From assembly GCA_902595535.1 (NCBI GenBank), contig CACJQI010000002.1, positions 1 through 64,000 of the forward strand: a stretch of 64,000 bases of DNA, read 5' to 3'. The stretch is from an uncultured Pelagibacteraceae bacterium (lineage in GTDB: Bacteria; Pseudomonadota; Alphaproteobacteria; Pelagibacterales; Pelagibacteraceae). Every line of letters begins with the position of its first letter. Positions within the stretch are counted from its first letter, which is position 1. The notes under the pieces are model-generated. The model was not told the DNA's origin. It saw only the letters and a program-made list of their open reading frames with translations, and searched no databases. A program made the position numbers and the translations under genes. This document shows, in pieces, positions 7,868 to 54,084 of the stretch.

Positions 7868-7869
7868 TT

Positions 7870-8142: not shown

Positions 8143-8143
8143 A

Positions 8144-8602: not shown

Positions 8603-8669
8603 TTATACATTTTTTTCCCCAGAGCTTATTAATAATTTTATTTAGAAGAAAATTCTGTAAGTTATTAAA

Positions 8670-10088: not shown

Positions 10089-10108
10089 TTTCCAATATAA
10101 AAGAGTAA

Positions 10109-12505
10109 ATGCTTGCTCATTTTTATCAAAATTCAATTTTAAAAAATCCAAAAGCAATATTTACTCTTTTAATAATAGTAATTTTAAGTTTTGGTTATTA
10201 TTCAAAGGATTTTAGACTTGATGCTTCATCAGAAACTTTACTCATTGAAGGCGACCCTGACTTAGCTTATTTAAAAGAAATAACTGAAAGATATGGGTCT
10301 AAAGACTTTTTAATTTTAACTTATACGCCTAATGAGAAAATGGCATCAAATAATTCAATTAATAATCTTCTTAGTTTAAAGTATAAAATTCAAAGCTTAG
10401 ATTGGGTTCATAGCGTTATAACTCTTTTAGATATTCCACTTTTAAATAACTCTGATACCCCTCTTCAAGAACGTTTGCAGAGTTTTAAAACTTTAAAAGA
10501 TGAAGATGTAGATAGAGACCGAGGATTTAACGAAATTTTAAATAGTCCGGTATTTAGAAATTTTGTGATTAGCGAAAATGGTAATACCAGTGGTATAATT
10601 GTAAACATTAAAGCGAGTAAAAAATTAGATAATATTGAGAATTTATCTAAAGAAGAAATAGAAAAATATAAAGATCAAATTAAAAAACAGAATCATAAAA
10701 ATATTTTAGAAATAAGACAAGTTATTCAAAGTTATGATGATGTAGGAAAAATATATCTTGGGGGAATTCCAATGATCGCAGATGATATGATGACTTTTAT
10801 CAAAAGTGATATCATAGTATTTGGATTGGGAGTTCTTTTATTCATTATTGCTACATTGTGGTTTATTTTTAGAAAATTAATTTGGATAATTGTTCCAATT
10901 AGTAGCTGTTTATTTTCAGTAATAATAATGATGGGATTACTTGGAATTCTTGGCTGGAAAGTAACTGTTATATCATCAAATTTTATTGCGTTAATGCTGA
11001 TATTAACAATGGCGATGAATATTCACATGAGTACTCGCTATCTTCAATTAAGAAAAGATCATCAAAACAAAAGTAATTATGAAATAATTTCTTTAACGAC
11101 TAATAAAATGTTTTGGCCAATAATTTATACAGTCTTTACAACTATATTTGCTTTTTTGTCTTTGATCTTTAGTGAAATAAAGCCAATTATTGATTTTGGA
11201 TGGATGATGACTTTTGGTTTAATTACATCTTTTATCATAACGTTCACTTTGCTACCTACACTTTTAAGTTTTGTATCAACTGAAAATATGTCTATCAAAA
11301 AAGAACAGAGCTCAAAAATTACTTCTTTTTTAGGACTAATTTCACTTAATAATAAGAATATAATTTTTGGATTGACAGGTATTGTTATAATTTTGAGCGT
11401 CATTGGTATTAGTAAACTCGAGGTAGAGAATAGTTTTATAAATTATTTTAATAAAAATACGGAAATTTACAAAGGTATGAGACTTATTGATGAACAATTA
11501 GGTGGCACAACACCATTAGAAGTAATTTTAAAATTTCCCTCTAAAGATAAAGAAAATAAAGAAAAATCTAGTGAAGATGATGAATTTGAGGATTGGGGTG
11601 ATGAGGAAGATTCAAATGATGAAAAATATTGGTTCACTAAAGATAAAATTGATAAAATTGCCTCAGTTCATAACTATTTAGATGGTCTACCTCAAGTAGG
11701 TAAGGTTTTATCTTTTTCTTCTATTATTGATGTTGCCACGCAATTAAATAATAATAAACCACTAGGTACGTTAGAAATGGGAGTGCTCTATTCTAAAATT
11801 CCGGAGAGTATTAAAACAGAAATAATAGATCCATATATTTCAATTGAAAATAATGAAGCTCGTATAAGTCTAAGAATTATAGACTCTCAAGAAAATTTGA
11901 GAAGAAATGATCTCATTAATAAAATTAATTTTGATCTCAAAAATAAAATTGGATTAAATGAAGAAGAGTTCAAATTAGCAGGTGTTTTGATTTTATTTAA
12001 TAATTTATTGCAAAGTTTATTTAAGTCTCAAATTTTAACTTTAGGATTAGTGATGATCGGCATATTCTCTATGTTTATTATTTTATTTAAAAATATAAAA
12101 TTGTCTTTAATAGGAGTAGTTCCAAATTTTATTGCTGCATTTTTTATTTTAGGAATTATTGGTCTTCTGGGAATTCCGCTAGATATGATGACAATAACAA
12201 TAGCTGCTATTACTATCGGTATTGCGGTAGATAATAGCATTCATTATATCTATAGGTTTAAAGAAGAGTTTAAAAAGATTAAAGATTACAACAAAACATT
12301 AAAAGTTTGTCATTCAACCGTTGGTGTAGCAATTTTAAATACATCAATCACAATTGTCTTTGGATTTTCAATTTTAGTATTATCTAAATTCATACCAACA
12401 ATATATTTTGGGATTTTTACAGGACTTGCAATGTTATTAGCAATGATATCTGTTTTAACATTATTGCCTTCATTAATTTTAATTATTAAACCTTTTGGGA
12501 GATAA
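10109..12505 (+). CDS. RND/MMPL-family exporter (patched-like, two sterol-sensing-type bundles)
   Basis: Large inner-membrane protein of 798 residues with the duplicated RND layout: one N-terminal helix, a periplasmic loop, five to six helices (about residues 230-390), a further helix, a second loop and a final helix bundle (about 640-790). The second bundle contains TIAAITIGIAVDNSIHYIYR, typical of MMPL-type proteins with their membrane Asp residues. The second loop has an acidic stretch near residues 485-505. The substrate is not visible; relatives export hopanoids, lipids or hydrophobic compounds. It starts 20 bases after dnaB and ends 5 bases before cvpA. Confidence 0.75.
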   Translation: MLAHFYQNSILKNPKAIFTLLIIVILSFGYYSKDFRLDASSETLLIEGDPDLAYLKEITERYGSKDFLILTYTPNEKMASNNSINNLLSLKYKIQSLDWVHSVITLLDIPLLNNSDTPLQERLQSFKTLKDEDVDRDRGFNEILNSPVFRNFVISENGNTSGIIVNIKASKKLDNIENLSKEEIEKYKDQIKKQNHKNILEIRQVIQSYDDVGKIYLGGIPMIADDMMTFIKSDIIVFGLGVLLFIIATLWFIFRKLIWIIVPISSCLFSVIIMMGLLGILGWKVTVISSNFIALMLILTMAMNIHMSTRYLQLRKDHQNKSNYEIISLTTNKMFWPIIYTVFTTIFAFLSLIFSEIKPIIDFGWMMTFGLITSFIITFTLLPTLLSFVSTENMSIKKEQSSKITSFLGLISLNNKNIIFGLTGIVIILSVIGISKLEVENSFINYFNKNTEIYKGMRLIDEQLGGTTPLEVILKFPSKDKENKEKSSEDDEFEDWGDEEDSNDEKYWFTKDKIDKIASVHNYLDGLPQVGKVLSFSSIIDVATQLNNNKPLGTLEMGVLYSKIPESIKTEIIDPYISIENNEARISLRIIDSQENLRRNDLINKINFDLKNKIGLNEEEFKLAGVLILFNNLLQSLFKSQILTLGLVMIGIFSMFIILFKNIKLSLIGVVPNFIAAFFILGIIGLLGIPLDMMTITIAAITIGIAVDNSIHYIYRFKEEFKKIKDYNKTLKVCHSTVGVAILNTSITIVFGFSILVLSKFIPTIYFGIFTGLAMLLAMISVLTLLPSLILIIKPFGR

Positions 12506-29178: not shown

Positions 29179-29406
29179 ATGAACAAAGAAAACGCAAGTA
29201 AACTCTGGAAAATTATTCAGGAAGCTGGCGATTATTTGGGCGGTCAGCTGCCCGACCACCCAAATCATCCTAGAGGAAGAAACCCCTACGCCCATGTAGC
29301 GATATGTGTGAAAGATAATTTTAATGCAAGTTACAAAGATATTCCTGATGAAAAATTTAATGAAGTGGTAGATTATATTAAATATCTAAAACAAAATCCT
29401 AGTTAG
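29179..29406 (+). CDS. Small soluble protein, antirepressor-tail-like (intact copy C)
   Basis: A 75-residue protein; truncated copies of its 5' end occur at 21648 and 27616. The middle is DYLGGQLPDHPNHPRGRNPY and the end NASYKDIPDEKFNEVVDYIK. The pattern SYKDIP-x-x-x-F-x-E-x-x-x-(F/Y)I resembles the C-terminal domain of phage antirepressors (P22_AR / ORF6C type); this is a resemblance from memory. It is convergent with and overlaps ltaE by eight bases. It seems to be the target gene where islands enter. Confidence 0.6.
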   Translation: MNKENASKLWKIIQEAGDYLGGQLPDHPNHPRGRNPYAHVAICVKDNFNASYKDIPDEKFNEVVDYIKYLKQNPS

Positions 29407-30451
29407 TTTTATTGATTATATTTAAAAATTCATCAACATCATTGTCCTTAGTATTCCAAGCTGCAACTAATCTCACTGCTTTACCGTCCCACTCGTCTTC
29501 ATTTATTGTATAGCCCTCAGAATTTAAATGTTCAATTTTATTTTTTGGGAATGTTGCAAAAACCTCATTAGCTTCAGTTGGGAAAGACAAATTAATATCA
29601 GGGTGATTAGTCAATCCATCACTGAGTTTTTTTCCCATTTTGTTTGCATGTCTTGCATTTTTAATCCAAACGTCATTAGTTATGTATGCGTCCAGTTGAG
29701 CAGATACAAAACGCATTTTAGATAACAAATGCCCTGCTCTTTTCATTAAAAAAGCAACATTGCCAACTAAATCTTTTTTAAAGAAAATTATAGCTTCTGC
29801 AGCTAAACAACCATTTTTGGTTGCACCAAAAGATAATACATCAATACCTGACTTCCAAGTCATCTCGGCTGGCGTTACATCGAGTGACACTAATGCATTA
29901 GCAAACCGTGCTCCATCCATATGCATATTTAAATTATGATTATGAGCAACATCTGATATTTTTTTAATTTCATCTAATTGATAAACTTCTCCTGTTTCAC
30001 AAACTTGTGTAATGCTAACAGACGAGGGTTGAGTATGGTGTACAATTCCTTTTCCAGTAATCGCTTCATCTAGTTCTTCAGCAGTTATTTTTCCTTTAAC
30101 ACCCTGGAGAGTAACAAGCTTTCCGCCACCAGTATAAAATTCTGGAGCACCACATTCATCAGTGTTTATATGGGACATCTTATGACAATAAATATTACCA
30201 AATGATGGTGTCATCGTTGATAAAGCTAAAGCATTAGCAGCCGTTCCTGAAGCTGTTGGAAAAACTATAACTTCTTTTTCAAAAATTTCAGAAAATTTAT
30301 CTTGAAGTTCGGTTGAAATTTGATCATTTCCATAAGGAGTGCTGTCTCCTTCATTAGCCTTTATAATTGCATCTAATACTTCTGGACAAGCACCCGCTAC
30401 ATTATCTGATGCAAATTTAACTCTTTCTCTTTTTGTTTTAATTTTTGCCAT
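29399..30451 (-). CDS. ltaE: Low-specificity threonine aldolase
   Basis: PLP enzyme that splits threonine to glycine and acetaldehyde. It has 350 residues with family segments FASDNVAGACPEVLDAI, TASGTAANALAL, NMHMDGARFANALV and LSFGATKNGCLAAEA, where the Lys in TKNG binds PLP. It is the last gene of a four-gene minus-strand operon (EamA permease, creatinase, amidinotransferase, aldolase) with spacers of 2-4 bases. All three enzymes touch glycine. Confidence 0.9.
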   Translation of the reverse strand: MAKIKTKRERVKFASDNVAGACPEVLDAIIKANEGDSTPYGNDQISTELQDKFSEIFEKEVIVFPTASGTAANALALSTMTPSFGNIYCHKMSHINTDECGAPEFYTGGGKLVTLQGVKGKITAEELDEAITGKGIVHHTQPSSVSITQVCETGEVYQLDEIKKISDVAHNHNLNMHMDGARFANALVSLDVTPAEMTWKSGIDVLSFGATKNGCLAAEAIIFFKKDLVGNVAFLMKRAGHLLSKMRFVSAQLDAYITNDVWIKNARHANKMGKKLSDGLTNHPDINLSFPTEANEVFATFPKNKIEHLNSEGYTINEDEWDGKAVRLVAAWNTKDNDVDEFLNIINKTN

Positions 30452-30453
30452 AT

Positions 30454-31569
30454 CTATTGTTTTGGAAAGTAATCTTTAAGATCCCCTTCTCGATAAACAT
30501 CCGCAGTACAACAATGAAGTCCACCTCCAAATGCGTAAGCATCTCTAAGTTCTACAGGAACTACCTCCATACCTAATTTATCTAGTTGTTCCGCTTGATA
30601 AACTTCACTCTTTTCAACACAAACTGTTTTTGGGTCAAGAACTAACACATTCATTGATAGCCATGTTGATGAATAACATAAAGGAGGTGGTTCATTATGT
30701 GCAGGTTGAGCACTATCAATAATTTCCCAGCCATTATTTTCAAATAGTTTTCTTTGTTCTTTTGGTAGTCTTCTTTGAGGATTGTTAATAATTAATCCCT
30801 CTTTGATTGGAGTAAAAGTTGCATCAATATGTATTGGATAAGGGTCACCTGGAAAGTTAACAGCATGAACTCTATGATCTTTGTAGTGTCTTTTTAACCA
30901 ATCAATACCTTTTAAATTAGTGGTAAAACCATGTTGAACGACCAAGTCTTTACCAAATCTTAAAACATCAGCAGCATCAAATAACGGTTCTTCTTCAGTT
31001 GTTACAAAAAACTTATCTTCAGTCCATTGTAATCTTTTTTGAATACCAATCTTGTCAGATAAATAATCTTTTCGATAATCAGCATCTGTCAGTCTTGGTT
31101 TTGGAGCTGACTCATGTCTCATATTTGGATCAGAGTTATAATAATCTTTTAACAAAGGTCGGTAACAAAGATATTCAAACCATCTACATCGATAACTCAT
31201 GGTTGCTTCTAAAATTTCATTTCCAACGGTAAGCAAAACATCTCTTGGAGGCATACATCCAAACATAGTTTCTGCTTCCCAATCTGGAGTAGATGTTTTT
31301 TGATTAAAATCTATTGGGGTTGGACGATCTACTTTAATTCCTTTTTTCTCAAGCAAGCTTGCAAAATTATCTAAAAGTTGATTTGCTTTATCAACAGTGT
31401 CTTTTGTTCTAGGGCCAAACTGACCTCTCATATCACTATCCTCTGGAACCTTTGCATCTAAAGCTGGCTCTGGTGCTGGAATACATGTTCCATCCGCTTT
31501 ACCAACAATTACATGTTTTAACGGATCCCATTCATTCCAACTATTAACGATAGTCTTCTGATCATTCAT
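30454..31569 (-). CDS. Glycine amidinotransferase-like enzyme
   Basis: Amidinotransferase of the AGAT family, which moves the amidino group of arginine to glycine to make guanidinoacetate, or acts in reverse. I start it at the ATG at 31569 (MNDQKTIVNSWNEWDPLKHV), giving 371 residues, because the start fits the family and the creatinase stop lies five bases upstream. The catalytic Cys is Cys353 in FGGGLHCCTADV. Other family parts are CMPPRDVLLTVGNEI, FHIDATF-like PIHIDATFTPIKEGL and ALDAKVPEDSD. Acceptor specificity is not proven by sequence. The partner creatinase suggests guanidino metabolism. Confidence 0.82.
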   Translation of the reverse strand: MNDQKTIVNSWNEWDPLKHVIVGKADGTCIPAPEPALDAKVPEDSDMRGQFGPRTKDTVDKANQLLDNFASLLEKKGIKVDRPTPIDFNQKTSTPDWEAETMFGCMPPRDVLLTVGNEILEATMSYRCRWFEYLCYRPLLKDYYNSDPNMRHESAPKPRLTDADYRKDYLSDKIGIQKRLQWTEDKFFVTTEEEPLFDAADVLRFGKDLVVQHGFTTNLKGIDWLKRHYKDHRVHAVNFPGDPYPIHIDATFTPIKEGLIINNPQRRLPKEQRKLFENNGWEIIDSAQPAHNEPPPLCYSSTWLSMNVLVLDPKTVCVEKSEVYQAEQLDKLGMEVVPVELRDAYAFGGGLHCCTADVYREGDLKDYFPKQ

Positions 31570-31573
31570 AATT

Positions 31574-32791
31574 TTAATTTTGTATAATATTATGCTCAGG
31601 CCCGAAAGGAAATTTTGTAATATTCTCAGCACCTTCTTCACCAATAACTAAAATATCATGCTCTCTATATCCACCTGCCCCTGGATTTCCTTCGGGAATC
31701 ATAATCATTGGCTCCATTGAAATGACCATATTTTTTTCGAGTACAGTATCGATATCTTCTCTGAGTTCTAATCCAGCTTCTCTTCCATAAAAATGCGAAA
31801 GAACTCCAAAAGAATGGCCATACCCAAAAGTTCGATAATGCAAATAACCAAGTTCAGCAAACATTTCATTCAGTTCATGGCAAATATCAGAACATTTTAC
31901 ACCAGGTTTGATAAGTTCTAATCCACGTTTATGAACTTTAACATTTGCTTCCCATACTTTGAGTGAAGCATCATCAGCATGATCTAAAAATAATGTTCTC
32001 TCTAATGCGGTATAGTATCCAGAAATCATTGGAAAAGTATTTAGAGATAATATGTCTCCTTTTGTTAATTTTCTATTTGTCTTTGGATTATGTGCGCCAT
32101 CTGTATTAATCCCTGATTGAAACCAAACCCATGTATCCATATATTCTGCATCAGGATAAGTTTTTACAATTTCTCTTTCCATTCGATCACGTCCAGCAAT
32201 TGCAACTTCAATTTCTGTATTGCCTTCTCTAATATTTTTTACAATTTCTTCTCCACCTAGGTCGGCAATACGTGCTCCATTTTTAATAATCTCAATTTCT
32301 TCATTAGATTTGATCATTCTTAATTGCATTAATTCTTTTGAGACATCGCTAAAAACTGAAAAAGTAAAAATAGATCCAATTTTTTCTCTCATATCTAGTG
32401 TTACATGATCATTCTCAAGTCCAATATTTTTAGGTGGATCGTCTCTACCAATAATTGATACTATTGCTCTGAGAAAATTATCTCTTTTCCAATCTGTATA
32501 AATTACATTATCGCAGTGTGATCTTCTCCAAGGTTGGCTTGCATCAATGTTTGCTGAAATAGTTGAAATTTTATTTTGAGTGATAACACATCCATAAGGT
32601 CTTCCAAAAGAGCAGTAAATAAAACCTGTGTAATAAGCAATATTATGCATTGAGGTTAAAATAACCATGTCTAGATTATTTTTATCCATGACAGTTCTTA
32701 AATTATTTACTCTTGTGTTATACTCAGAGTTTGAAAAAGGAAGCTTAACTTTCTCTCCATTTCTAAGAGTAAAAAAATCTGGTCGTTCCAT
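31574..32791 (-). CDS. Creatinase (creatine amidinohydrolase), M24 family
   Basis: Hydrolyses creatine to sarcosine and urea. At 405 residues it has the pita-bread fold of M24 proteins, and it follows the Pseudomonas creatinase sequence as I remember it very closely, including YCSFGRPYGCVIT, NIDASQPWRRS, WFQSGINTDGAHNP (His234 at the active site), RTFGYGHSFGVLSHFYGREA and SMEPMIMIPEGNPGAGGYRE. It lacks the full metal-ligand set expected in metallo-aminopeptidases, as creatinase does. Guanidinoacetate is an alternative substrate. Spacers of four bases join it to the EamA permease and the amidinotransferase. Confidence 0.85.
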   Translation of the reverse strand: MERPDFFTLRNGEKVKLPFSNSEYNTRVNNLRTVMDKNNLDMVILTSMHNIAYYTGFIYCSFGRPYGCVITQNKISTISANIDASQPWRRSHCDNVIYTDWKRDNFLRAIVSIIGRDDPPKNIGLENDHVTLDMREKIGSIFTFSVFSDVSKELMQLRMIKSNEEIEIIKNGARIADLGGEEIVKNIREGNTEIEVAIAGRDRMEREIVKTYPDAEYMDTWVWFQSGINTDGAHNPKTNRKLTKGDILSLNTFPMISGYYTALERTLFLDHADDASLKVWEANVKVHKRGLELIKPGVKCSDICHELNEMFAELGYLHYRTFGYGHSFGVLSHFYGREAGLELREDIDTVLEKNMVISMEPMIMIPEGNPGAGGYREHDILVIGEEGAENITKFPFGPEHNIIQN

Positions 32792-32795
32792 AAAA

Positions 32796-33701
32796 TTAAT
32801 TTAAACCGATATATCTTTTATTCCATCTCATTACCAAACTATAATAAGTAAGAGACACAAATAAGAAGAAACCACCTATAATAGTATTATTTGTTGGAAT
32901 TTCATTAATGCCAAATAATGGTAACCAAACCCAAAATATTCCACCTATGACTTCTGTTAGAGATAATAAGGTTAATTCAGCTGCTGGAATTGCTTTAGAT
33001 CCAATTGAATATAAAATTAATCCAAGGCAAACTAATGTTCCATGTAAAGAAAACAGTGCACTATTGTAACTAGATGAAAAGAAAACTAAGTCGTTGGTTA
33101 AAATCATTATTGAAGCAAAAATAACACAAAAAAATCCTGCAAAAGCAGTTGTAGTAAATTTTGGAGTTTCTTTACGCCACCTTAAAGAAACTGAAAATAC
33201 TGAAAATCCAACTGAAGATGTAATTCCAAAAATAAAACCTACCATGGTATTTTGGTTGTCGGTTCCAATTGCCATAATAGAAATTCCTATTGTTGCAATA
33301 ATAATTGATATCCAAACGTTCAAAGTAATTTTTTCTCTTAAAAATAAAAAAGCTAATAAAGCTGTAAAAAAAGGCATTGCAGCTAAACATAATAACGTGA
33401 TTGCAGCACTTGTATTAGTTATTGAAAACATAAAACAAATCATTGCAATACCAAGGCCCGAACCTCCTATGAGACCAGAGATACCCATCTTAAAATAATT
33501 CTTATAAAAATTTTTTCCCTCTTCAAAGAATAAATATAAATTTAATAAAATAAAAATTGTTGAACCTCTTCCAAAAATATATTGCCATGGAATTAATTGA
33601 GGATCATTCATGTATCTAACAACTAGGGGCCCAAATGACCAAATTAGACCTGCAAACAACACTATCGGAACAGCTATTTTAGGATTTTTAAGTATTAACA
33701 T
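32796..33701 (-). CDS. EamA/DMT family permease
   Basis: Ten-helix permease of 301 residues with two EamA repeats, for example VLFAGLIWSFGPLVVRYM, FSITNTSAAITLLCLAAMPF and KAIPAAELTLLSLTEVIGG. It leads the creatinase-amidinotransferase-threonine aldolase operon, four bases before creatinase, so it may move creatine, another guanidino compound or an amino acid; this is inference from position. The start is ATG. Confidence 0.85.
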   Translation of the reverse strand: MLILKNPKIAVPIVLFAGLIWSFGPLVVRYMNDPQLIPWQYIFGRGSTIFILLNLYLFFEEGKNFYKNYFKMGISGLIGGSGLGIAMICFMFSITNTSAAITLLCLAAMPFFTALLAFLFLREKITLNVWISIIIATIGISIMAIGTDNQNTMVGFIFGITSSVGFSVFSVSLRWRKETPKFTTTAFAGFFCVIFASIMILTNDLVFFSSSYNSALFSLHGTLVCLGLILYSIGSKAIPAAELTLLSLTEVIGGIFWVWLPLFGINEIPTNNTIIGGFFLFVSLTYYSLVMRWNKRYIGLN

Positions 33702-33751: not shown

Positions 33752-35011
33752 CTATATTAAGGCTTGATTTGATTGATTAGGTAAATAGCAATCTATAATT
33801 TCACCTTTTTTAAATTCAGATTTGCCAGATGGTAATATTGCCCAAATATTTGATTTTACAAAAGATTTAATTCTAAAAGATTCTTGACCCTTTAAAATTT
33901 CAACTTCAATTTTTCCATTTTTAGTTGTGTTTAATTTACTTTTAACAAATCTAGTAAAATTTTTTTTCTTCAAAAAATCATTTTTTAAAACAGCCTTAAT
34001 CGGCTTTTCTGCGCTAAGTCCTAAAATTTTTTCAAAATAAGGGTATACAAAAAATCTAAAGCAAGCAGCTGATGACATCGGATTACCTGGTAATCCAAAA
34101 ATTGCTTTTTGCTTATTTTTAATCTTTGCAAACAAAATAGGTTTGCCAGGACGTATAGCGACACTTTTAAAATAATCAGATAACTGAAAAGACCTTACTA
34201 CACTTGGTATATAGTCAAATTTACCTGCTGAAACAGCTCCTGAAGTAATAATTATATTAATATTAGACCTTAACATTCTATTGATCTTGGTTTTATATAG
34301 TTTTTGATGGTGATCCTTTAAAATTCCACCATCTATAAAATTAAATAAAAAGTTTTTATCTAAATTTCTAATATATTGACTATTTGAATTTCTCACTTTC
34401 CAATCAGGGATATTATCTTTATTAGAAATTTCATTTCCTGTTGAAAAAAATAATATATTTATCTTTTTTTTAACTTTGATGTTCTTAATACCCAAAGTTT
34501 TAAAAGCTAGTATGTGATTTGGTTGAACTATAGTATTTTTTTTTATTACTAATTCATTTTTTTTATAATCAGATCCTGCAAATCTAACATGATCATATTT
34601 CTTAACTTTTTTATCAATTATTATGTATTTTTTTTTGTTTTTGTTTTTGTTTGGATGAAAATTAATCTGTTCGATTGGAATAATAGCATCAAAACCTTTT
34701 GGAATAATTCCTCCTGTCATTATTTCAACAGCATTAAATTTATCTATTCTTTTTTTAAACGGTTTAGCACCTGCTGCAACAGAACCAATAATTTTGAAAT
34801 GCTGAGGTAATCTTTTTTTAATTTGTTTAGTGTCTTTAGAATTTATTGCGTAACCATCAAAAGCTGCATTATTTCCTGATGGATAATTCATTTTTGAATA
34901 AATATTTTCAGATAAAACTCTATTTAATGAATTCATACTTTTTATATTTTCATCTTGAATTTTAATAATTGCTTTAGATAAAATTTTTTTTGAATTTTGA
35001 TAACTAATCAT
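33752..35011 (-). CDS. moeA: Molybdopterin molybdenumtransferase MoeA
   Basis: Inserts molybdate into adenylated molybdopterin. The protein has 419 residues with GNNAAFDGYAINSKD near the N-terminus, MTGGIIPKGFDAIIPIEQ, the MoCF motif ITSGAVSAGKFDYIP and FGLPGNPMSSAACF. It is very lysine-rich. It overlaps mobA by eight bases. The nearby molybdenum formate dehydrogenase (40-43 kb) is the apparent client. Confidence 0.92.
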   Translation of the reverse strand: MISYQNSKKILSKAIIKIQDENIKSMNSLNRVLSENIYSKMNYPSGNNAAFDGYAINSKDTKQIKKRLPQHFKIIGSVAAGAKPFKKRIDKFNAVEIMTGGIIPKGFDAIIPIEQINFHPNKNKNKKKYIIIDKKVKKYDHVRFAGSDYKKNELVIKKNTIVQPNHILAFKTLGIKNIKVKKKINILFFSTGNEISNKDNIPDWKVRNSNSQYIRNLDKNFLFNFIDGGILKDHHQKLYKTKINRMLRSNINIIITSGAVSAGKFDYIPSVVRSFQLSDYFKSVAIRPGKPILFAKIKNKQKAIFGLPGNPMSSAACFRFFVYPYFEKILGLSAEKPIKAVLKNDFLKKKNFTRFVKSKLNTTKNGKIEVEILKGQESFRIKSFVKSNIWAILPSGKSEFKKGEIIDCYLPNQSNQALI

Positions 35012-35612
35012 TTTCTAAATATTCTTCAGCTTTTATTAAATCTTCTTTGGTATTAATATTGAAAAAAGGATCTTTGTTTTCAAACTTCATATTAATTGAC
35101 TTTACACCAATTTTATTTGCCCACATTTCAACTTTTCTTTCACCATTATCTAAATCTTTTTCCAATCTTTCTAATAAATCAATAGACCAAAGTCCAAATA
35201 TATTATGTCTAGTATCATTAGAATTTATAAAAAAAAGCTTGCCCTCATAATTTTTAATTTCTTCTAAAAAATTATTTAAAATCTGTTTTTTAAAAAAAGG
35301 CGTATCCGATGGAAAAGTTGAAATCCATTTATAACTTTTATTATTTTGTCTAATCCATTTCATAGCAGTTAAAATACCTCCTAAAGGACCTAATCCCATC
35401 TTTGTATCTTCAACTAATGAAATTTTATTTGAATTAATATATTTAATTTTATTATTTGAAATTAATAATACCTCGTTAAATTCATCAATAATTTCTGATA
35501 AAATATAATCTATTAACAATTTATCCCCTAATTTAACTTGGCATTTATCTTCACCAAACCTTTGGGACTTTCCGCCTGCTAGTACAACACCTAAAATATT
35601 GCTATGGTCCAT
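35004..35612 (-). CDS. mobA: Molybdenum cofactor guanylyltransferase MobA
   Basis: Attaches GMP to molybdenum cofactor to give the guanine dinucleotide form used by bacterial formate dehydrogenases. The protein has 202 residues with the nucleotide-binding VVLAGGKSQRFGEDKC, the MGLGPLGGILTAM segment and FPSDTPFFKKQIL. It overlaps moeA by eight bases and is divergent from the IscU-like gene. Confidence 0.9.
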   Translation of the reverse strand: MDHSNILGVVLAGGKSQRFGEDKCQVKLGDKLLIDYILSEIIDEFNEVLLISNNKIKYINSNKISLVEDTKMGLGPLGGILTAMKWIRQNNKSYKWISTFPSDTPFFKKQILNNFLEEIKNYEGKLFFINSNDTRHNIFGLWSIDLLERLEKDLDNGERKVEMWANKIGVKSINMKFENKDPFFNINTKEDLIKAEEYLEND

Positions 35613-35655
35613 TTATCAAAATATAAAACATTAAAATTTGAATTAAAGAAATATA

Positions 35656-36054
35656 ATGGATCTTAGAATTTTAGAAATAGCATCACACACAGAAAATAAT
35701 AAGATTATTGAAGACTTCACTCATAAGTCAAAACATAAAAATCCTCTATGTGGAGATGAAATGGAAATCAGCTTAATTGTTAAAAACGATGTGATTAAAG
35801 ATATGGGATATCAATGTAAATCTTGTGTTTATTGCCAAGCTTCAGTGAGTTTATTATCAAGAAAAATAAGGGGAAAACACGTTGAGGATATAAAGTCATT
35901 TATATCGCATACAGAAAAGTTATTTGATGATGTAAAAATTAATATTGATAAGTACTGGAAAGATTTTAAAGAGATTTTAGATAAAAAAAATATTTCTCGT
36001 AAAGAATGTTTGCTGCTACCTTTTAAAACTATTTTGAAAGCTTTAAAAATTTAA
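35656..36054 (+). CDS. IscU/NifU-like iron-sulfur scaffold
   Basis: A 132-residue protein with the three scaffold cysteines: Cys32 in NPLCGDEME (with Asp34), Cys57 or Cys60 in YQCKSCVYCQASVSLL, and Cys118 in SRKECLLLPFKTI. This is the pattern of IscU/SufU proteins (CGD, then CxxS/A, then R-x-x-C). It could help build the many clusters of the formate dehydrogenase encoded downstream. An ATG start and close spacing (0 bases) to the HPP gene suggest cotranscription. Confidence 0.8.
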   Translation: MDLRILEIASHTENNKIIEDFTHKSKHKNPLCGDEMEISLIVKNDVIKDMGYQCKSCVYCQASVSLLSRKIRGKHVEDIKSFISHTEKLFDDVKINIDKYWKDFKEILDKKNISRKECLLLPFKTILKALKI

Positions 36055-36531
36055 ATGATAAAAATAACAAAACCTACTCTACAGAAAGCACTAATTGCTG
36101 GTTTTTTCTCTGCATTTACTATTGGGGTATTAACTGTTTTAACTTACAAAAGTACTTTAGGTTATTTTTTAGCAGGATCGTTTGGTTCATCGATGGTTTT
36201 GTTGTTTGGTTTTCCCGAAAGTCCTTTTGCTCAACCAAAAAATGTTTTTTTTGGACACCTGATAACAGCATTGGTAGGTGTTATTTTTGTAAATTATATT
36301 CCTCTTCCTATTTATATTAATATAGCTTTAGCTGTTGGTGCAGGAATCTTTTTTATGATTTTACTAAATGTAGTTCATCCTCCTGCAGGTGGGAATCCTA
36401 TAATGGTAATTATAGGAAGTGCGTCTTACGAATATTTAATAAATCCAATTATTTTTGGATGTATAATAATTTTATTGCTAGCAATATTAGTTAATAAGTT
36501 TCTTCTAAAAAAGAATTATCCTTCTCAATAA
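36055..36531 (+). CDS. HPP-family membrane protein
   Basis: Integral membrane protein of 158 residues with four to five helices. The core LAGSFGSSMVLLFGFPESPFA followed by QPKNVFFGHLITALVGV and VVHPPAGGNPIMVI gives the HPP motif for which the family is named. Some HPP proteins transport nitrite. It directly abuts the IscU-like gene and precedes the formate dehydrogenase gene by 118 bases. Confidence 0.8.
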   Translation: MIKITKPTLQKALIAGFFSAFTIGVLTVLTYKSTLGYFLAGSFGSSMVLLFGFPESPFAQPKNVFFGHLITALVGVIFVNYIPLPIYINIALAVGAGIFFMILLNVVHPPAGGNPIMVIIGSASYEYLINPIIFGCIIILLLAILVNKFLLKKNYPSQ

Positions 36532-36649
36532 ATATTTCTAAGTTTCTTAAATAAAGTAATTATTGAATAATTCTAATTTACATATATATATTTTAGTATG
36601 AAAAATAGGGTAAATAACATTAAGGGTAAAGAAATGAGAGATAAACAAA

Positions 36650-37849
36650 ATGAAAATACTATGTGTCTTATACGACGACCCGAAAAATGGAATGCCCAAA
36701 AGCTATGCTCTGGATAAACTTCCAAAGATAGAAAAATATCCAGATGGAATGACGCTTCCATCTCCTCAAGGTAGAGATTTTAATGAAGGTGAGTTGCTTG
36801 GTTGTGTTTCAGGTGAGTTAGGATTAAGAAAATTTTTGGAGAGTAATGGTCATCAACTGGTAGTTACCTCTGATAAAGACGGTGAAGGATGTACTGCAGA
36901 CAAAGAGTTAGTTGACGCTGATGTAGTAATCTCACAACCATTCTTTCCTTATTACCTTACCAGGGAAAAAATGGAGACGGCACCCAATTTAAAAATGGCA
37001 ATTACTGCTGGAATTGGTTCTGATCATGTAGACTTACAGGCAGCTATGGATCGGAAAGTTGATGTTGTTGAAGTAACTTATTGTAATTCTAGATCAGTTG
37101 CAGAGCACATTGTTATGATGATTGTTTCTATGGTTAGAGATTATCATACACAATACGCAATTGTGAATAATGGTGGTTGGAACATAGCTGATGCTGTTCA
37201 AAGATCTTATGATGTTGAAGGAATGCATATTGGTACTGTTGCAGCTGGTAGAATTGGTTTAGACGCTTTAAGAAAAATGAAACCATTTGATGTACATCTT
37301 CACTACTTTGATAGACATAGATTACCAGAGAGTGTTGAAAAAGAACTAAATTTAACTTTTCATGACTCTGTAGAATCTATGGTTAAAGTGTGTGATGTAG
37401 TAACAATAAATTGTCCTTTGCACCCTGAGACTGAACACCTATTTGATGAAGCAATGATAAATAAAATGAAAAAAGGTGCTTATATAGTTAATACTGCTAG
37501 AGGTAAAATTTGTGACAAAGATGCAATCGCTTCAGCACTTAAATCTGGTCAGTTAAGTGGTTATGCTGGAGATGTATGGTTTCCACAGCCAGCTCCTAAT
37601 GATCATCCTTGGAGATCAATGCCTCATCATGGTATGACACCTCATACATCAGGGACATCATTATCGGCTCAAACTAGATATGCTGATGGTGTAAGAGAAA
37701 TATTAGAGTGCTTTTTTGACAACAAAGAAATTAGAAATCAATATCTTATTGTTAAAGACGGAGAACTTGCGGGAATGGGTGCTCATTCGTATAGCAAAGG
37801 CACTGCAACTGATGGATCTGAAGAAGCAGCAAAATATCAAAAAAAATAA
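36650..37849 (+). CDS. fdh: NAD-dependent formate dehydrogenase (2-hydroxyacid dehydrogenase family)
   Basis: Oxidises formate to CO2 with NAD, without metal. At 399 residues it matches the Pseudomonas/Candida enzyme family. Features are the NAD site GMHIGTVAAGRIGLDALR, NTARGKICD with the catalytic Arg, and MTPHTSGTSLSAQTRYADG with the catalytic His; the C-terminus GMGAHSYSKGTATDGSEEA is also distinctive. The canonical Rossmann GxGxxG is here TVAAGRIG, as in this family. An intrinsic terminator follows, so it is a separate unit from fdhD and fds genes. Confidence 0.93.
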   Translation: MKILCVLYDDPKNGMPKSYALDKLPKIEKYPDGMTLPSPQGRDFNEGELLGCVSGELGLRKFLESNGHQLVVTSDKDGEGCTADKELVDADVVISQPFFPYYLTREKMETAPNLKMAITAGIGSDHVDLQAAMDRKVDVVEVTYCNSRSVAEHIVMMIVSMVRDYHTQYAIVNNGGWNIADAVQRSYDVEGMHIGTVAAGRIGLDALRKMKPFDVHLHYFDRHRLPESVEKELNLTFHDSVESMVKVCDVVTINCPLHPETEHLFDEAMINKMKKGAYIVNTARGKICDKDAIASALKSGQLSGYAGDVWFPQPAPNDHPWRSMPHHGMTPHTSGTSLSAQTRYADGVREILECFFDNKEIRNQYLIVKDGELAGMGAHSYSKGTATDGSEEAAKYQKK

Positions 37850-37863
37850 TTTAAATAAAAAAA

Positions 37864-37896
37864 AGCGATTTATAACTAATATAAATCGCTTTTTTT
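37864..37896 (+). terminator. Intrinsic terminator after fdh
   Basis: AGCGATTTAT at 37864-37873 pairs perfectly with ATAAATCGCT at 37881-37890 across a 7-base loop, followed by a run of seven T. It lies 15 bases after the formate dehydrogenase stop. Confidence 0.85.
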
Positions 37897-37969
37897 AATG
37901 AGATTAGATTATCAAAATAAAACTAATTTTCATTCTTTCATATTTTGTAAGTTAAAATATACTGAATGA

Positions 37970-38815
37970 ATGAGTTCTAAATTTACGGTCTTTAAGTATA
38001 AATCAAATAAATTAAATGATTTTGAAGATCATATATCTATCGAAGAACCTCTAGAAATAATACTTAAATATAAAGATAAAGATGATTCATGGATTGAAAA
38101 AACTATTTCAATTACAATGCGAACACCAGGTGATGATGAGGATCTAGTAAGAGGATTTCTTTTCAATGAAAAAGTTATAGATAAATTAGATTATATCGAA
38201 AAAATTGAAAGTGTTGGAGAAACTTCAGAACAATACGGTTTACAAAATAAAATCATAGTTACAATTAATAATTCAGAAAACATAGATATTGATAAAATAA
38301 AAAGAAATTTTTTGACTAATTCATCTTGTGGAGTTTGTGGCAAAAGTTCTTTAGATGTCTTAGACATAATCAAAAAAGATAAAATTTTTAAATTCGAACC
38401 AAAAATTCCTAAAGAGGTTTTAATGAAATCACCTAAAAATCTTAGACAAAATCAATCAGAATTTTCAAAAACTGGAGGCATTCATGCAAGTGGTTTGTTT
38501 TCATCACAAGGAGATATTATAGCTATCAAAGAGGATGTTGGTCGACATAACGCTCTAGACAAATTAATTGGATATGCTTTAAGTAAAAAATTACTTGATA
38601 ATAAATGTCAATTTTTAACTTGCTCTGGTAGACTCAATTTTGACTTGGTCCAAAAAGCTCTTATGGCCAATATTGGTATTTTAATTGGTGTGGGTGCGCC
38701 AACCAGCCTCGCTATAGATTTAGCTAATAAGTTTGACATGACATTGGTTGGTTTTGTAAAAGAGGATAGTTTTAATATTTATAGTAATAGGGAAAGAATT
38801 ATAATAAATACTTGA
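37970..38815 (+). CDS. fdhD: Formate dehydrogenase accessory sulfurtransferase FdhD
   Basis: Transfers sulfur from the IscS persulfide to the molybdenum cofactor of formate dehydrogenase. The protein has 281 residues with the active CxxC loop SSCGVCGKSS (Cys120 and Cys123) and family motifs MRTPGDDEDLVRGFLF, TGGIHASGLF, EDVGRHNALDKLIG and GVGAPTSLAIDLA. It directly precedes the molybdenum formate dehydrogenase genes on the same strand. Confidence 0.95.
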   Translation: MSSKFTVFKYKSNKLNDFEDHISIEEPLEIILKYKDKDDSWIEKTISITMRTPGDDEDLVRGFLFNEKVIDKLDYIEKIESVGETSEQYGLQNKIIVTINNSENIDIDKIKRNFLTNSSCGVCGKSSLDVLDIIKKDKIFKFEPKIPKEVLMKSPKNLRQNQSEFSKTGGIHASGLFSSQGDIIAIKEDVGRHNALDKLIGYALSKKLLDNKCQFLTCSGRLNFDLVQKALMANIGILIGVGAPTSLAIDLANKFDMTLVGFVKEDSFNIYSNRERIIINT

Positions 38816-38841
38816 ACTATTAAAAAAGGGTAAAGGGTAAA

Positions 38842-40497
38842 TTGTCAAAAAATATAAGTAATCTCTCTGGTAGAATTGGACTTAAAGACAATCTGTTTAA
38901 ACAGATTTCTGAAAATACGTTAAGTAAATCTCCAAAAGACATAAATGAGATTGCAAAAGAAAATAATTTGGGTGTTTCAACAATTCATGGAGCAGAGTCT
39001 TTTTATGAGTTTTTAAGGCCTTCTCACCGAGAAAAAAAAGCATTTGTTTGTAATGGAAGTGCATGTATGTGTGCGGGAACTCAAGAAAAACTAAAAGATA
39101 CTTTAAAAGAAAAACTAGGGAACGATAAAGTTGGTGAAATGTTTTGTCTTGGTCATTGTTATGAAAATAATGCATTTCACTATGATGGTGAAAATTATGC
39201 AGGAAAAGATATAGAAAAAATTGATCAAATTTTAAAAGGTGAAGATATCAAACAAGAAAAGTTTTTTTCAAAAAGTTTTGCTACTACAAGTTTTTTAATG
39301 GATGATAAACTTTCATCGACAGATCAATTTAAAGATCAACTTAGTAAATTTTTAAAAACTGATAAAAAAGAAATCATTAAATCATTATTAGACTCTAACT
39401 TAACTGGTAGAGGTGGTGCAGGTTTTCCCACAGGAATGAAATGGGATTTCTGTAGCAAAGCAAAAGGTGATAAAAAATATGTTCTTTGCAATGCTGATGA
39501 GGGTGACTCAGGAGCATTTTCAGATAGATATCTATTAGAAGACCAACCTCTAAAAGTTATCTTTGGAATGGTAATTTGTGGTCTAGTAATTGGAAGTGAT
39601 GAAGGTGTTTTGTATATAAGAGGTGAGTATCCAAAATCTATTGAGGCAATTAATGGTAGCATCAATGAACTAAAAAAATTAAATCTTTTAGGTGAAAATA
39701 TTCTAGGAACAGATTTTTCATTTGATCTTGGTATTTGCATTGGTCAGGGCGCTTATATTTGTGGTGAAGAAACAGCTTTGATTGCATCTATTGAGGGAAG
39801 GCGAGCAGAAGTAGATGTTAGACCTCCTTTTCCTGTCACAGAAGGCTTGTATAAAAAACCAACTGTCGTAAATAATGTAGAAACTTTAGCTGCTGCAACT
39901 GGTATTTTAATAAATGGTTCTGAAAAATTTTCAGCTATAGGAAATAAAAAATCTGCAGGAACAAAATTAGTGTGTCTTGATAGTTTTTTTAATAATCCTG
40001 GTGTCTACGAAATTGATATGGGAACATCTATGAAAAAAATATTTGAAGAAATTGGTGGTGGATATAAAGAAGCTGTCAAAGCATTTCAAATAGGAGGTCC
40101 ATTAGGCGGTGTTGTGCCTTTAGCTGAGATTGATAATTTAAATTTAGATTTTCAAGAATTTACTGCAAAAGGATTTATGCTAGGACATGCAAGTGTAGTA
40201 AGTATTCCAAAAGATTTTTCAATGTCAGAATATATTCATCATCTATTTGAATTTTCTGCTGAAGAATCGTGTGGAAAATGTTTTCCTGGAAGACTAGGAT
40301 CATACAGGGGTAAAGAAATGTTTGACCAAGCAAAGAAAAAAACAGCTAAAATTCCCCTTAAATTGCTTAATGAATTACTAGTTACGATGCAAAAAGGATG
40401 TTTATGTGCTCTTTGTGGAGCAATCCCTACTCCAATAATGAATATACTTAAGTACTTTGGAGATGAAATGAAAAATGATATGGTTAAGGATAATTAA
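38842..40497 (+). CDS. fdsB: NAD-linked formate dehydrogenase beta subunit, FdsG-FdsB fusion
   Basis: Diaphorase part of a molybdenum formate dehydrogenase, 551 residues. Residues 1 to about 135 are a NuoE-like thioredoxin domain with [2Fe-2S] cysteines in FVCNGSACMCAG and MFCLGHCYE. The rest is NuoF-like: the FMN/NADH part with LTGRGGAGFPTGMKWDFC and CNADEGDSGAF, then ICGEETALIASIEGRRA and PTVVNNVETLAA, and the [4Fe-4S] site SCGKCFPGR with CLCALCG near the end. In Cupriavidus these parts are separate (FdsG, FdsB). The start is TTG; it overlaps the alpha-subunit start by one base. Confidence 0.9.
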   Translation: MSKNISNLSGRIGLKDNLFKQISENTLSKSPKDINEIAKENNLGVSTIHGAESFYEFLRPSHREKKAFVCNGSACMCAGTQEKLKDTLKEKLGNDKVGEMFCLGHCYENNAFHYDGENYAGKDIEKIDQILKGEDIKQEKFFSKSFATTSFLMDDKLSSTDQFKDQLSKFLKTDKKEIIKSLLDSNLTGRGGAGFPTGMKWDFCSKAKGDKKYVLCNADEGDSGAFSDRYLLEDQPLKVIFGMVICGLVIGSDEGVLYIRGEYPKSIEAINGSINELKKLNLLGENILGTDFSFDLGICIGQGAYICGEETALIASIEGRRAEVDVRPPFPVTEGLYKKPTVVNNVETLAAATGILINGSEKFSAIGNKKSAGTKLVCLDSFFNNPGVYEIDMGTSMKKIFEEIGGGYKEAVKAFQIGGPLGGVVPLAEIDNLNLDFQEFTAKGFMLGHASVVSIPKDFSMSEYIHHLFEFSAEESCGKCFPGRLGSYRGKEMFDQAKKKTAKIPLKLLNELLVTMQKGCLCALCGAIPTPIMNILKYFGDEMKNDMVKDN

Positions 40498-43265
40498 TGA
40501 GTTCTGAAAAAAGAAAAATAGCTTATATAGACGGAAAACCATATGAAATTGGCGCTAATCATACGTCAATTCTAAAGTTTGTTAAAAGTTATGTTGGCGA
40601 AAAAAAAGTTCCAACATTATGTGATGATCCTAATTTAGCTCCCTACGGTGCTTGTAGAGTTTGTTCTGTTGAGGTTGCTCTTGAAAAAGATGGCCCAACA
40701 AGAGTCGTTGCTTCTTGCCATACACCCGTTGCTGAAAATCAACATATCTTCACATCGAATGAGTCATTAAAAGATCTTAGAAAAAATATTGTAGAATTGG
40801 TTTTAACAGACCATCCTATGGAGTGCGATAGTTGTGAAGTAAATAATAATTGTGAACTTCAAACTGTTGCTAATGATCTTGGTATCTCTGATCATAGATA
40901 CAATAGCCCTAAACAACATAAAGGAATTCCAAGAGATACTTCTCATGACTATATGAGAATGAATTTAGATAACTGCATTAATTGTGGAAGATGTGTCAGA
41001 GCATGTGATGAAATTCAAGGATCATTTGTTTTAACCATGAGTGGAAGAGGTTTCGAGTCTAGAATTACAACAGACAATGATATGATGTTTGGAGACTCAT
41101 CTTGTGTTTCATGTGGAGCATGTGCTCATACATGTCCTACTGATGCTATTTCGGATGTTTTCCAATCTAAATCTGCAGCAGTAGATAAAAAAGTTAGAAC
41201 TACATGTTCTTATTGTGGAGTTGGTTGTAACTTAGAAGCATCAATTAAAGATGAAAAAGTAGTTGCAATTGATACACCAAAAGAAACTGAAGTTAATGCA
41301 GGACACACTTGTATTAAAGGAAGGTATGCATTTAGTTTTTATGAACATCCTGACAGATTAAAAATGCCATTAATTAAACGAAACGGAAAATTTGAAGAAG
41401 CATCATGGGATGAAGCTTATGATTTTATTAAAAAAGAAATGAATAGAATTATTGATAACAATGGTCCTGACGCATTTGCTGGAATATCATCTGCAAGATG
41501 TACTAATGAAGAAAACTATGTATTTCAAAAAATGATTAGAGCTACTGTTGGAACAAACAGTGTTGATTGTTGCGCTAGAATTTGTCACTCGCCAACTGCA
41601 TGGGGAATGCAACAAACTTTTGGAACAGGTGCAGCAACTAATTCTACAGAAGATATTTATCATGCTGATTGTTTTATAGTTATTGGCGCAAACCCAACTA
41701 ATGCTCATCCAGTTACTGGTGCAAAAATTAAGCAGCAAGTAATGAAGGGTAAAAAGTTAATTGTTCTAGATCCAGTTACTACTGATTTAGCTAAACTTGC
41801 AGATTACCACATTAAACTAAGACCAGGAACAAACGTTGCTGTTTTAAATATGATGTTGCACTTCATTGTTAAGTCAAAATTATATAATGCTGATTTTGTA
41901 AGAGATAGAACTGAAGGATTTGATAATTTTCTTAAAGAAATAGAAAGACAAGATGTTGATCATTTAGCTAGAGTTGCTGGTGTTGATAAACAATTAGTTA
42001 AAGAGGCAGCAATTACATATGCAACAGCAAGAAATTCAATGGAATTCCATGGACTTGGGGTTACTGAGCAAGAACAAGGTTCAAAAACAGTAATGTTAAT
42101 TGCTGATCTTGCAATGATTACAGGAAATATTGGTAGAAAGGGTGTTGGTGTAAATCCACTTAGAGGACAAAATAATGTTCAGGGTGCAGCAGATATGGGG
42201 TGTCAGCCTCATCAAGGAGCAGGTTACTTTGAAGTTGCAGATGAAAAAAATCAAAAATTTTATACTGAAAAATATGGTGTAACACACCCAACAAAACCAG
42301 GTTTGAAAATCCCTCAGATGTTTGAAGCTGCAATTGATAAAGAACTAAAAGGATTATGGATTATTGGAGAAGATATTGTACAAACTGATCCAAATAGTGC
42401 ACATGTTATTGAAGCAATGAACTCATTAGAACTTTTGGTTGTTCAAGAAATATTTATGAGTGAAACAGCAAAACTTGCAACTGTTGTACTTCCAGGGACA
42501 ACCTTCTTAGAAAAAGATGGAACTTTTACAAATACTGAAAGAAGAATACAAAGAGTAAATAGAGCTGTGCCACCTTTACCTGGAACAAAACCAGACGGAG
42601 TAATCGTAACTGACATGATGCAAAAACTTGGTTTTGATCAACCAACATATGATGCTGACCAAGTATTAAAAGAAATTGCTGACGTTGTTCCATTTTTCAA
42701 AGGTGTTACCAGAGAAAGACTTGGAAAACTTGGTCTACAATGGCCAGTAAAAGAAGATGGAACAGATACACAAATTTTACATACTGAAACATTTAAGCTA
42801 GGAAAAGGAAGACTTAAAAATTTCGATTGGAAAGAGTCAGCAGAAATTGAGACTAATAAAAAAGATTATCCATTAATTTTAACAACGAGCAGAGTTCTAC
42901 AACATTATAATGCAGCCACCATGACTAGAAGAACAAAAAATATAAATATAGTTGATGAAGATGTTCTTCTTATTCATCCAAACGACGCGGCTCATAGAGA
43001 TCTTAATACAGGTGATATTGGAAGACTATACTCTGGAAGAGGTGAAGTAGCTTTAAAAGTTGAAGTAACTGATAAAGTTAAAGAAGGAATTGTATTTACA
43101 ACTTTTCATTTTCCAGAACATATGGTTAATATGGTTACAGGTCATGGTAAAGACGAAGAAACTATGTGTGCTGAATACAAAGTATCTTCAGTAGAGGTTC
43201 AAAAAATTTCTAATCAGTTTAAAACGGAAGTAAAACCTAAAGAAAATCAAGCTGAAGTAGTTTAA
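40497..43265 (+). CDS. fdsA: Molybdenum formate dehydrogenase alpha subunit
   Basis: Catalytic subunit of 922 residues. The N-terminus is NuoG-like, with a [2Fe-2S] site (TLCDDPNLAPYGACRVCSVE) and [4Fe-4S] sites including MECDSCEVNNNCEL, NCINCGRCVRACDE and SCVSCGACAHTCP. The molybdopterin domain begins at TCSYCGVGCNLEAS, with the Mo ligand Cys363 in CARICHSPTAWG (cysteine, not selenocysteine). Motifs of the bis-MGD fold (HCHHP-type VNPLRGQNNVQGAADMG) are clear. Works with the fused FdsGB subunit to yield NADH from formate in the cytosol. A separate fdsC or fdsD was not seen. Confidence 0.93.
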   Translation: MSSEKRKIAYIDGKPYEIGANHTSILKFVKSYVGEKKVPTLCDDPNLAPYGACRVCSVEVALEKDGPTRVVASCHTPVAENQHIFTSNESLKDLRKNIVELVLTDHPMECDSCEVNNNCELQTVANDLGISDHRYNSPKQHKGIPRDTSHDYMRMNLDNCINCGRCVRACDEIQGSFVLTMSGRGFESRITTDNDMMFGDSSCVSCGACAHTCPTDAISDVFQSKSAAVDKKVRTTCSYCGVGCNLEASIKDEKVVAIDTPKETEVNAGHTCIKGRYAFSFYEHPDRLKMPLIKRNGKFEEASWDEAYDFIKKEMNRIIDNNGPDAFAGISSARCTNEENYVFQKMIRATVGTNSVDCCARICHSPTAWGMQQTFGTGAATNSTEDIYHADCFIVIGANPTNAHPVTGAKIKQQVMKGKKLIVLDPVTTDLAKLADYHIKLRPGTNVAVLNMMLHFIVKSKLYNADFVRDRTEGFDNFLKEIERQDVDHLARVAGVDKQLVKEAAITYATARNSMEFHGLGVTEQEQGSKTVMLIADLAMITGNIGRKGVGVNPLRGQNNVQGAADMGCQPHQGAGYFEVADEKNQKFYTEKYGVTHPTKPGLKIPQMFEAAIDKELKGLWIIGEDIVQTDPNSAHVIEAMNSLELLVVQEIFMSETAKLATVVLPGTTFLEKDGTFTNTERRIQRVNRAVPPLPGTKPDGVIVTDMMQKLGFDQPTYDADQVLKEIADVVPFFKGVTRERLGKLGLQWPVKEDGTDTQILHTETFKLGKGRLKNFDWKESAEIETNKKDYPLILTTSRVLQHYNAATMTRRTKNINIVDEDVLLIHPNDAAHRDLNTGDIGRLYSGRGEVALKVEVTDKVKEGIVFTTFHFPEHMVNMVTGHGKDEETMCAEYKVSSVEVQKISNQFKTEVKPKENQAEVV

Positions 43266-53704: not shown

Positions 53705-54084
53705 TAACTAGCGCTCTCCTTTGCAAATTTATCGTATTCTTCTTTGTTCATAAGGCTATCCATTTCCGATTGATCTTTCATCTTAAGTTTAAAAAACCAA
53801 GCTGATCCTTCAGGATCTTCATTAATTTTAGAGGGATCATCAACAATTGCTTGATTGGTATCTACTACCTCGCCACTAATTGGAGTATAAACATCACTAG
53901 CAGCTTTTGTAGATTCTACCACTCCTGCAGTTCCATCTTTTTCAACGTTAGATCCTTTTTCAGGAAGTTCTGCAAAAACTATATCTCCAAGCATTTCTGT
54001 TGCATGCTTTGTAATTCCTATTGTTGCTACATCTCCCTCTAAAGTAATCCACTCGTGTTCTTTCGAAAATTTTACTTCACTCAT
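53704..54084 (-). CDS. gcvH: Glycine cleavage system H protein
   Basis: Lipoyl carrier of the glycine cleavage system. It has 126 residues; the lipoylated residue is Lys60 in [20 protein letters not shown], and the N-terminus [18 protein letters not shown] is typical. Both junctions overlap by one base (gcvT-gcvH and gcvH-gcvP), showing tight coupling. Confidence 0.97.

Follow-up and report, generated by a model that had tools for sequence, protein, structure and literature searches.

What is gained by a marine SAR11 cell that carries a creatinase, an amidinotransferase and an aldolase in one operon with a permease? SAR11 cells are very abundant and are reportedly in need of glycine or one of its precursors. 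The question is raised by a stretch of 64,000 nucleotides from an uncultured Pelagibacteraceae bacterium (assembly GCA_902595535.1, contig CACJQI010000002.1, positions 1 to 64,000), here called the window. The operon comprises four genes, listed from the first to the last.

33701-32796, minus strand: EamA/DMT-family permease, the first gene, 301 amino acids
32791-31574, minus strand: creatinase (creatine amidinohydrolase), an optional cassette between EamA and AGAT, 405 amino acids
31569-30454, minus strand: AGAT-like (L-arginine:glycine amidinotransferase) enzyme, the hub of the operon, 371 amino acids from its ATG
30451-29399, minus strand: pyridoxal phosphate (PLP)-dependent aldolase, optional, following AGAT; the nearest solved structures are L-threonine aldolases, 350 amino acids

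The gaps between successive genes are 4, 4 and 2 bases. AGAT was started at the ATG; a mechanically assigned TTG start at 31644 falls within the creatinase gene and was not used. A first-pass annotation of the window had named the same four genes and described them as tightly spaced, and the open reading frames, the family matches and the gaps agree with this. It had also placed creatinase at the heart of the operon. The distribution of the genes leads to a different view.

We surveyed 397 Pelagibacterales genomes, of which 151 were classed as good. AGAT was found in 289 (116 of the good genomes), creatinase in 86 (40) and the aldolase in 103 (50). Creatinase is present in 85 of the 289 genomes with AGAT vs one of the 108 lacking it, and the aldolase in 102 vs one, counts that are not corrected for relatedness. 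The single exceptions are G388 for creatinase and G139 for the aldolase, the latter gene being partial and close to a contig end. Of the 289 genomes with AGAT, 204 lack creatinase and 187 lack the aldolase, so AGAT needs neither. Across all 397 genomes creatinase and aldolase occur together in 37, creatinase alone in 49 and the aldolase alone in 66.

Where the genes co-occur they are usually neighbors. In 79 of 86 genomes no more than 60 bases separate creatinase from AGAT, which argues that the gene order is not due to chance. Among the remaining seven, AGAT is interrupted and 226 bases away in G326, the two genes are 1,722 bases apart in G340 and on different contigs in G006 and G113, AGAT is absent from G388, and its position is not listed for G291 and G328. 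For the aldolase the same 60-base limit holds in 91 of 103 genomes; it is 3.7 kb from AGAT in one and on another contig in three, and its placement is not listed for eight. In G326 (loci L045 and L100) AGAT and EamA are each interrupted while creatinase and aldolase are intact, reflecting either real decay or an assembly error.

Reading the loci around AGAT or creatinase gave 41 AGAT-bearing loci of the window's genus, and in 39 of these EamA and AGAT form the usual pair. The order EamA-creatinase-AGAT is found in 25 loci of the genus, including that of the window. EamA stands directly before AGAT in 14 of the 16 creatinase-less AGAT loci, with gaps of -6 to 45 bases. The two without this EamA are a second AGAT copy in G028 (L080) and an AGAT placed among other genes in G074 (L085). 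Outside the genus, G388 has EamA and creatinase without AGAT (L062), and the creatinase of G006 has neither beside it. The joins are precise, with creatinase-AGAT gaps of -7 to 7 bases and AGAT-aldolase gaps of -26 to 4. On a tree of EamA plus AGAT from 39 loci, creatinase changes state at least nine times and the aldolase at least six. Independent pairs comparing creatinase with the aldolase gave averages of 0.8 changing in the same sense, 1.2 in the opposite sense and 6.0 with no difference. AGAT is the slowest-changing member of the operon: mean pairwise identity is 90.4% for AGAT vs 75.7% for EamA (39 loci), 92.7% vs 84.6% for creatinase (25 loci) and 92.7% vs 79.0% for the aldolase (18 loci).

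Creatinase is thus a clean cassette within a constant EamA-AGAT pair, and the aldolase is a second, independent option behind AGAT. Because the pair is constant and the other two genes are optional, we regard this as an AGAT operon with optional parts rather than a creatinase operon. The first-pass annotation had named constancy of the operon in strains unable to use guanidino compounds as evidence against its own proposal, and this is half borne out, in that the AGAT-EamA core persists where creatinase is absent. These results on the genes, their order and families, the EamA-AGAT pairing and the independent turnover of creatinase and aldolase were obtained directly by computation. The divergent AGAT genes in other settings are 74-76% identical (G074, L085 positions 3433-11513; G028, L080 positions 5173-7251). 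By eye, the neighbors in G074 are an 801-amino acid FAD/aminomethyltransferase-like protein and a Rieske-like protein, and the second copy in G028 adjoins a different EamA-like protein.

What do the four proteins do? Aligned over its full length, the creatinase gives E = 4.2e-163 and 1.1e-161 against solved creatinases (546 bits for 7yto and 541 for 1chm), and the next family in the same comparison is prolidase at 90 bits. On alignment with 1chm, His234, Glu264 and Glu360 fall within the motifs GAHNP, ALERT and SMEPM; we take these to be the active-site histidine and two glutamates. The Asp pair that we take to be the metal-ligand pattern of M24 enzymes is missing, SLN and ALERT occupying the Asp positions of the metal enzymes. 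On sequence grounds the protein is confidently predicted to be a creatinase. Identities as DoeA, DddP or a dipeptidase were rejected (66/613, 25/600 and, for PepQ, 111/630 bits, given here and below as score/cut-off).

The AGAT-like enzyme is closest to human AGAT (295 bits, E = 6e-87), followed by SxtG (226 bits), HsvA (208) and StrB1 (180). The motifs FDAAD, HIDATF, NPQR, SSTW and LHCC of the catalytic and donor sides are kept in the alignment with human AGAT, and presumably contain the catalytic Cys, His and Asp and the arginine-binding residues. The acceptor lid reads D-P-Y-P-I in 51 of the 54 rows showing the motif, some of which are one gene fetched twice, and D-P-F-P-T in the other three, all from the sister family. 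Lid position 300 is therefore aromatic throughout, Y or, in 3 of 54 rows, F. Passages of PMC4887976 give the lid as D-P-N-P-M in human AGAT, D-I-F-P-S in CyrA and D-M-H-P-M in AmtA, and report that glycine is used by human AGAT and CyrA and not by AmtA, the lysine enzyme. As CyrA has an aromatic residue at position 300 too, such a residue is compatible with glycine, but the lid is no proof of it. The same passages describe amidinotransferases as reversible, with guanidinoacetate serving as donor for human AGAT and CyrA.

The aldolase matches the solved aldolases 1v72, 7yvr and 5vye with E = 5e-110 to 3e-84, and near-full-length matches to L-threonine aldolases were obtained for 7yvr (4e-106), 9l9g (2.5e-105) and 5vye (3e-84). 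It has GATKNG at residue 209, presumably the PLP-lysine motif, and lies below the curated cut-offs of PRK10534 (42/312 bits) and the GntG subfamily (72/230 bits). The permease passes the Pfam EamA model (60.4 bits, cut-off 28.2) and is below that of a carboxylate/amine transporter equivalog (52/230 bits). Riboswitch control of the operon was considered and rejected, the sole Rfam match in the window being a glycine riboswitch at 55265-55353, and an Rfam scan of nine related loci gave no match at the gathering threshold.

That riboswitch (minus strand) lies ahead of gcvT (54084-55202, minus strand), and the genes that follow gcvT have the sizes expected for gcvH and gcvP. A model for serC (TIGR01365) found no match in 16 of the 17 genomes tested, the window's own included; G028 has the gene. 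SoxA, the alpha subunit of sarcosine oxidase, was over its cut-off in all 17, ten with and seven without creatinase, and so is no mark of creatinase. In the window's genome the sarcosine oxidase is on another contig. In HTCC1062 two sarcosine-oxidase operons may include N-methylglutamate dehydrogenase, according to a passage of Sun et al. 2011 (PMC3160333). The common theme of glycine that had been proposed for the operon is supported by the serC and SoxA results, together with the riboswitch and gcvT. Two further steps that had been suggested are not supported. One was nitrogen from urea: a search of the window's genome assembly (G000, 95.7% complete) gave no urease alpha, though strong matches are present in 10 of the 30 tested genomes with creatinase and in none of the 10 without (two weak partial matches, of 28 bits in G006 and 20 bits in G022, were left uncounted). 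The other was a DAO-family oxidase at 44719 that could take sarcosine further; the gene exists, and is also seen in 10 creatinase-less loci, and as a sarcosine oxidase of this pathway it was rejected, no curated model naming it as one (ThiO, the best, 77/251 bits; soxA_mon 57/479.65 bits). Elsewhere in the window, PxpA/B/C-like 5-oxoprolinase genes stand beside TRAP transporter genes (56254-58667).

We next consider what the operon might achieve as a whole. Its composition suggests that glycine may be obtained from guanidino compounds in seawater. The explanation that we favor, with a probability of about 0.4, is glycine salvage, in which AGAT would run in the reverse sense overall, creatinase would supply sarcosine and the aldolase would free glycine. 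Each of the three enzymes can give glycine or its precursor sarcosine. The EamA permease would move guanidinoacetate-like compounds, and AGAT would act mainly backwards, converting guanidinoacetate and ornithine into arginine and glycine. Where present, creatinase would convert creatine to sarcosine and urea, the sarcosine oxidase of another locus would turn the sarcosine into glycine, and the aldolase would act on threonine or a different beta-hydroxy amino acid. All these reactions would end in glycine, in cells where serC was not found. In favor of this explanation are the motifs of creatinase and AGAT, the aromatic lid residue, the reversibility of amidinotransferases, the near restriction of creatinase and aldolase to genomes with AGAT and their direct joins to it, the serC and SoxA results, and a serA-type gene close to AGAT in one relative described below. 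The substrates and directions of EamA and AGAT, the activities of the four proteins and their purpose in supplying glycine are here read from sequence and context. From the first-pass annotation this explanation retains the gene identities, the spacing and the glycine theme, and gives up the central place of creatinase, the use of urea nitrogen and the DAO step. A broader form, in which EamA imports seawater guanidino compounds, AGAT passes the amidino group to ornithine and creatinase and aldolase are strain-specific add-ons for glycine, we consider somewhat unlikely.

A number of observations weigh against glycine salvage. AGAT stands without creatinase in most of its 289 genomes, and likewise without the aldolase in most, and these two do not track each other among them (37 with both, 48 and 65 with one only; Fisher p = 0.08, the Fisher tests ignoring relatedness). 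In the lid, Y and I replace N and M of human AGAT, and CyrA has S at the position of the I; since the lid differs from both enzymes, glycine as acceptor is not assured. The serC result is tempered by the model itself, which was over its cut-off in just 2 of 14 control genomes, so that other SerC types would escape it. Many EamA proteins are exporters. Lastly, AGAT relatives in other lineages lie beside EutA-, EutB-, EutC- or DoeA-like genes or carbamoyltransferase genes, which point to other substrates.

These relatives were sought in two ways. In a draw of 289 alphaproteobacterial genomes (cut-offs E <= 1e-40 for AGAT and E <= 1e-80 for creatinase), AGAT was found in seven, five of them outside the window's order, and creatinase in 32, thirty of them outside it. 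Two non-SAR11 genomes (G579 and G682) have both genes, on different contigs, with no EamA-creatinase-AGAT unit. In a scan of named genomes with the AGAT of G556 as query, the best 80 of 589 loci were read. AGAT is followed directly by a EutA-like gene in 33 of these 80, mostly from one marine lineage, while EamA comes before it in 12 and EamA-creatinase in one. EutB- and EutC-like genes follow the EutA-like gene in the one locus checked by family models. AGAT adjoins EutA- and DoeA-like genes in G282, and a DoeA-like gene in two sister-family loci. The EutA-, EutB- and DoeA-like proteins are below the curated cut-offs, so the link to ectoine is one of resemblance; one EutC-like protein passes a cyclodeaminase model. 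In two Desulfo-type genomes AGAT has a carbamoyltransferase-family gene beside it or nearby, and one of the two also has an amino-acid-kinase gene. Genes for solute-binding proteins or ABC transporters lie close to AGAT in two cases, G282 and a Filomicrobium metagenome-assembled genome (MAG), and in one non-SAR11 MAG a serA-type dehydrogenase lies two genes from an AGAT that is 74% identical. In L177 the gene that separates AGAT from the serA-type gene resembles SerC by eye, but is not claimed as one, as a Pfam search at 1e-10 found no match. All of these settings are metabolic, but they point to no single substrate, and with such varied neighbors the context does not fix the substrate or direction of AGAT.

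As separate observations, in other marine alphaproteobacterial single-cell genomes (L109, L114-L152 and L180) AGAT heads a cluster of EutA-, EutB- and EutC-like genes that also includes an amidohydrolase, an M24 protein and a proline-racemase-family protein. By eye, two other alphaproteobacteria (L199 and L207) have creatinase divergent from a DoeA-like or EutA-like gene. A phage-borne copy was also sought and rejected, a scan of viral contigs giving no confirmed relative and 15 phage records giving distant homologues of 21-28% identity. In an ocean-virus paper that discusses creatine synthesis, the enriched viral gene is GAMT in the passage concerned (PMC11360552).

The genes beside the operon vary as well. 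Two types of formate dehydrogenase seem to alternate there (window 33752-43265; loci L044-L099). A Mo-type cluster (fdhF-fdsB-fdhD with mobA and moeA) occurs in 17 of the 25 loci with creatinase vs 1 of the 14 without, and an NAD-type enzyme in many other loci; the window has both. In independent pairs the Mo type went with creatinase in 4.1 and against it in 0.2 on average (median p = 0.125), for stretches that are linked and of limited length. Part of Sun et al. 2011 (PMC3160333) shows fdhF-fdsB-fdhD-mobA-moeA, the genes beside the window's operon, in HTCC1062.

How do other explanations compare with glycine salvage? AGAT might act on a different amine or guanidino compound, such as a derivative of a compatible solute, making the operon a version of a wider osmolyte-catabolism module in which creatinase is a neighbor with a related substrate. 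The strict retention of the altered lid, the EutA-like gene that so often follows AGAT directly with EutB- and EutC-like genes in the locus examined, the DoeA- and EutA-like neighbors in G282 and the sister family, and the transporter genes in G282 and the Filomicrobium MAG are all in its favor. Yet the EutA, EutB and DoeA matches fall short of the curated cut-offs, the nearest solved enzyme is human AGAT, and the aldolase and creatinase of the genus fit glycine or sarcosine, and we judge this explanation unlikely. Alternatively AGAT could run forward, its classical reaction, converting arginine and glycine to ornithine and guanidinoacetate in a nitrogen-overflow, signaling or protective role. 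Glycine would then be supplied by the aldolase, which fits its position directly after AGAT, and by sarcosine oxidation, and the product would be exported by EamA, the DMT/EamA members including exporters. However, glycine would be spent in cells where the serC model found nothing, and a creatinase between EamA and AGAT is hard to fit into an export route; this we hold to be improbable. Least probable of all is mere physical linkage at an insertion-prone site, the genes being co-transcribed with no shared pathway. The repeated state changes of creatinase and aldolase and the exchange of formate dehydrogenase types in the flanking region speak for it, but each join is precise to within a few tens of bases, and both genes occur almost exclusively with AGAT (85 of 86 and 102 of 103 genomes).

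Some of this has been anticipated. Creatinase is placed in the core of SAR11 subgroup 1a, and a creatine-to-glycine route proposed, in passages of Thompson 2013 (PMC3686209), and an excerpt of PMC11366302 proposes creatine use by relatives of AEGEAN169. The available passages of PMC3686209 and PMC3160333, on the SAR11 one-carbon (C1)/osmolyte route to glycine, make no mention of an amidinotransferase or of the operon, and literature searches of openly licensed PMC papers found none on a SAR11 AGAT. According to a 2007 survey, in the part available, the only functions that had been demonstrated for prokaryotic amidinotransferases were in making antibiotics or toxins (PMC2242806). The SAR11 creatinase and the creatine-to-glycine route are thus already published, and the new part is the SAR11 AGAT operon with optional creatinase and aldolase. 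Its presence in so many of the Pelagibacterales genomes makes AGAT a candidate for linking the guanidino compounds of the sea with arginine and glycine. In the broader form of glycine salvage, guanidino nitrogen would be kept as arginine rather than lost as urea, and cells among the most abundant in the ocean would put a bacterial AGAT to catabolic use. Close relatives that have or lack creatinase and aldolase form a natural on/off series, which allows direct tests of substrates.

The operon can finally be compared with three known systems. AGAT relatives of other lineages adjoin genes like those of the eutABCD/doeA ectoine and hydroxyectoine cluster, whereas the window's operon has none of these. 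Compared with bacterial creatine degradation, the creatinase has about the same length and the same active-site motifs and the genome encodes a sarcosine oxidase alpha subunit; unlike that system, the sarcosine oxidase of the window's genome is on another contig, no urease was found there, and creatinase sits within an EamA-AGAT unit. The vertebrate AGAT/GATM and the CyrA of cylindrospermopsin producers differ from the SAR11 enzyme in the lid, D-P-Y-P-I matching neither, and in setting, which in SAR11 is not one of creatine or toxin synthesis. Nevertheless the enzymes belong, by sequence, to one fold family with common catalytic and donor motifs, and the aromatic residue at position 300 is as in CyrA.

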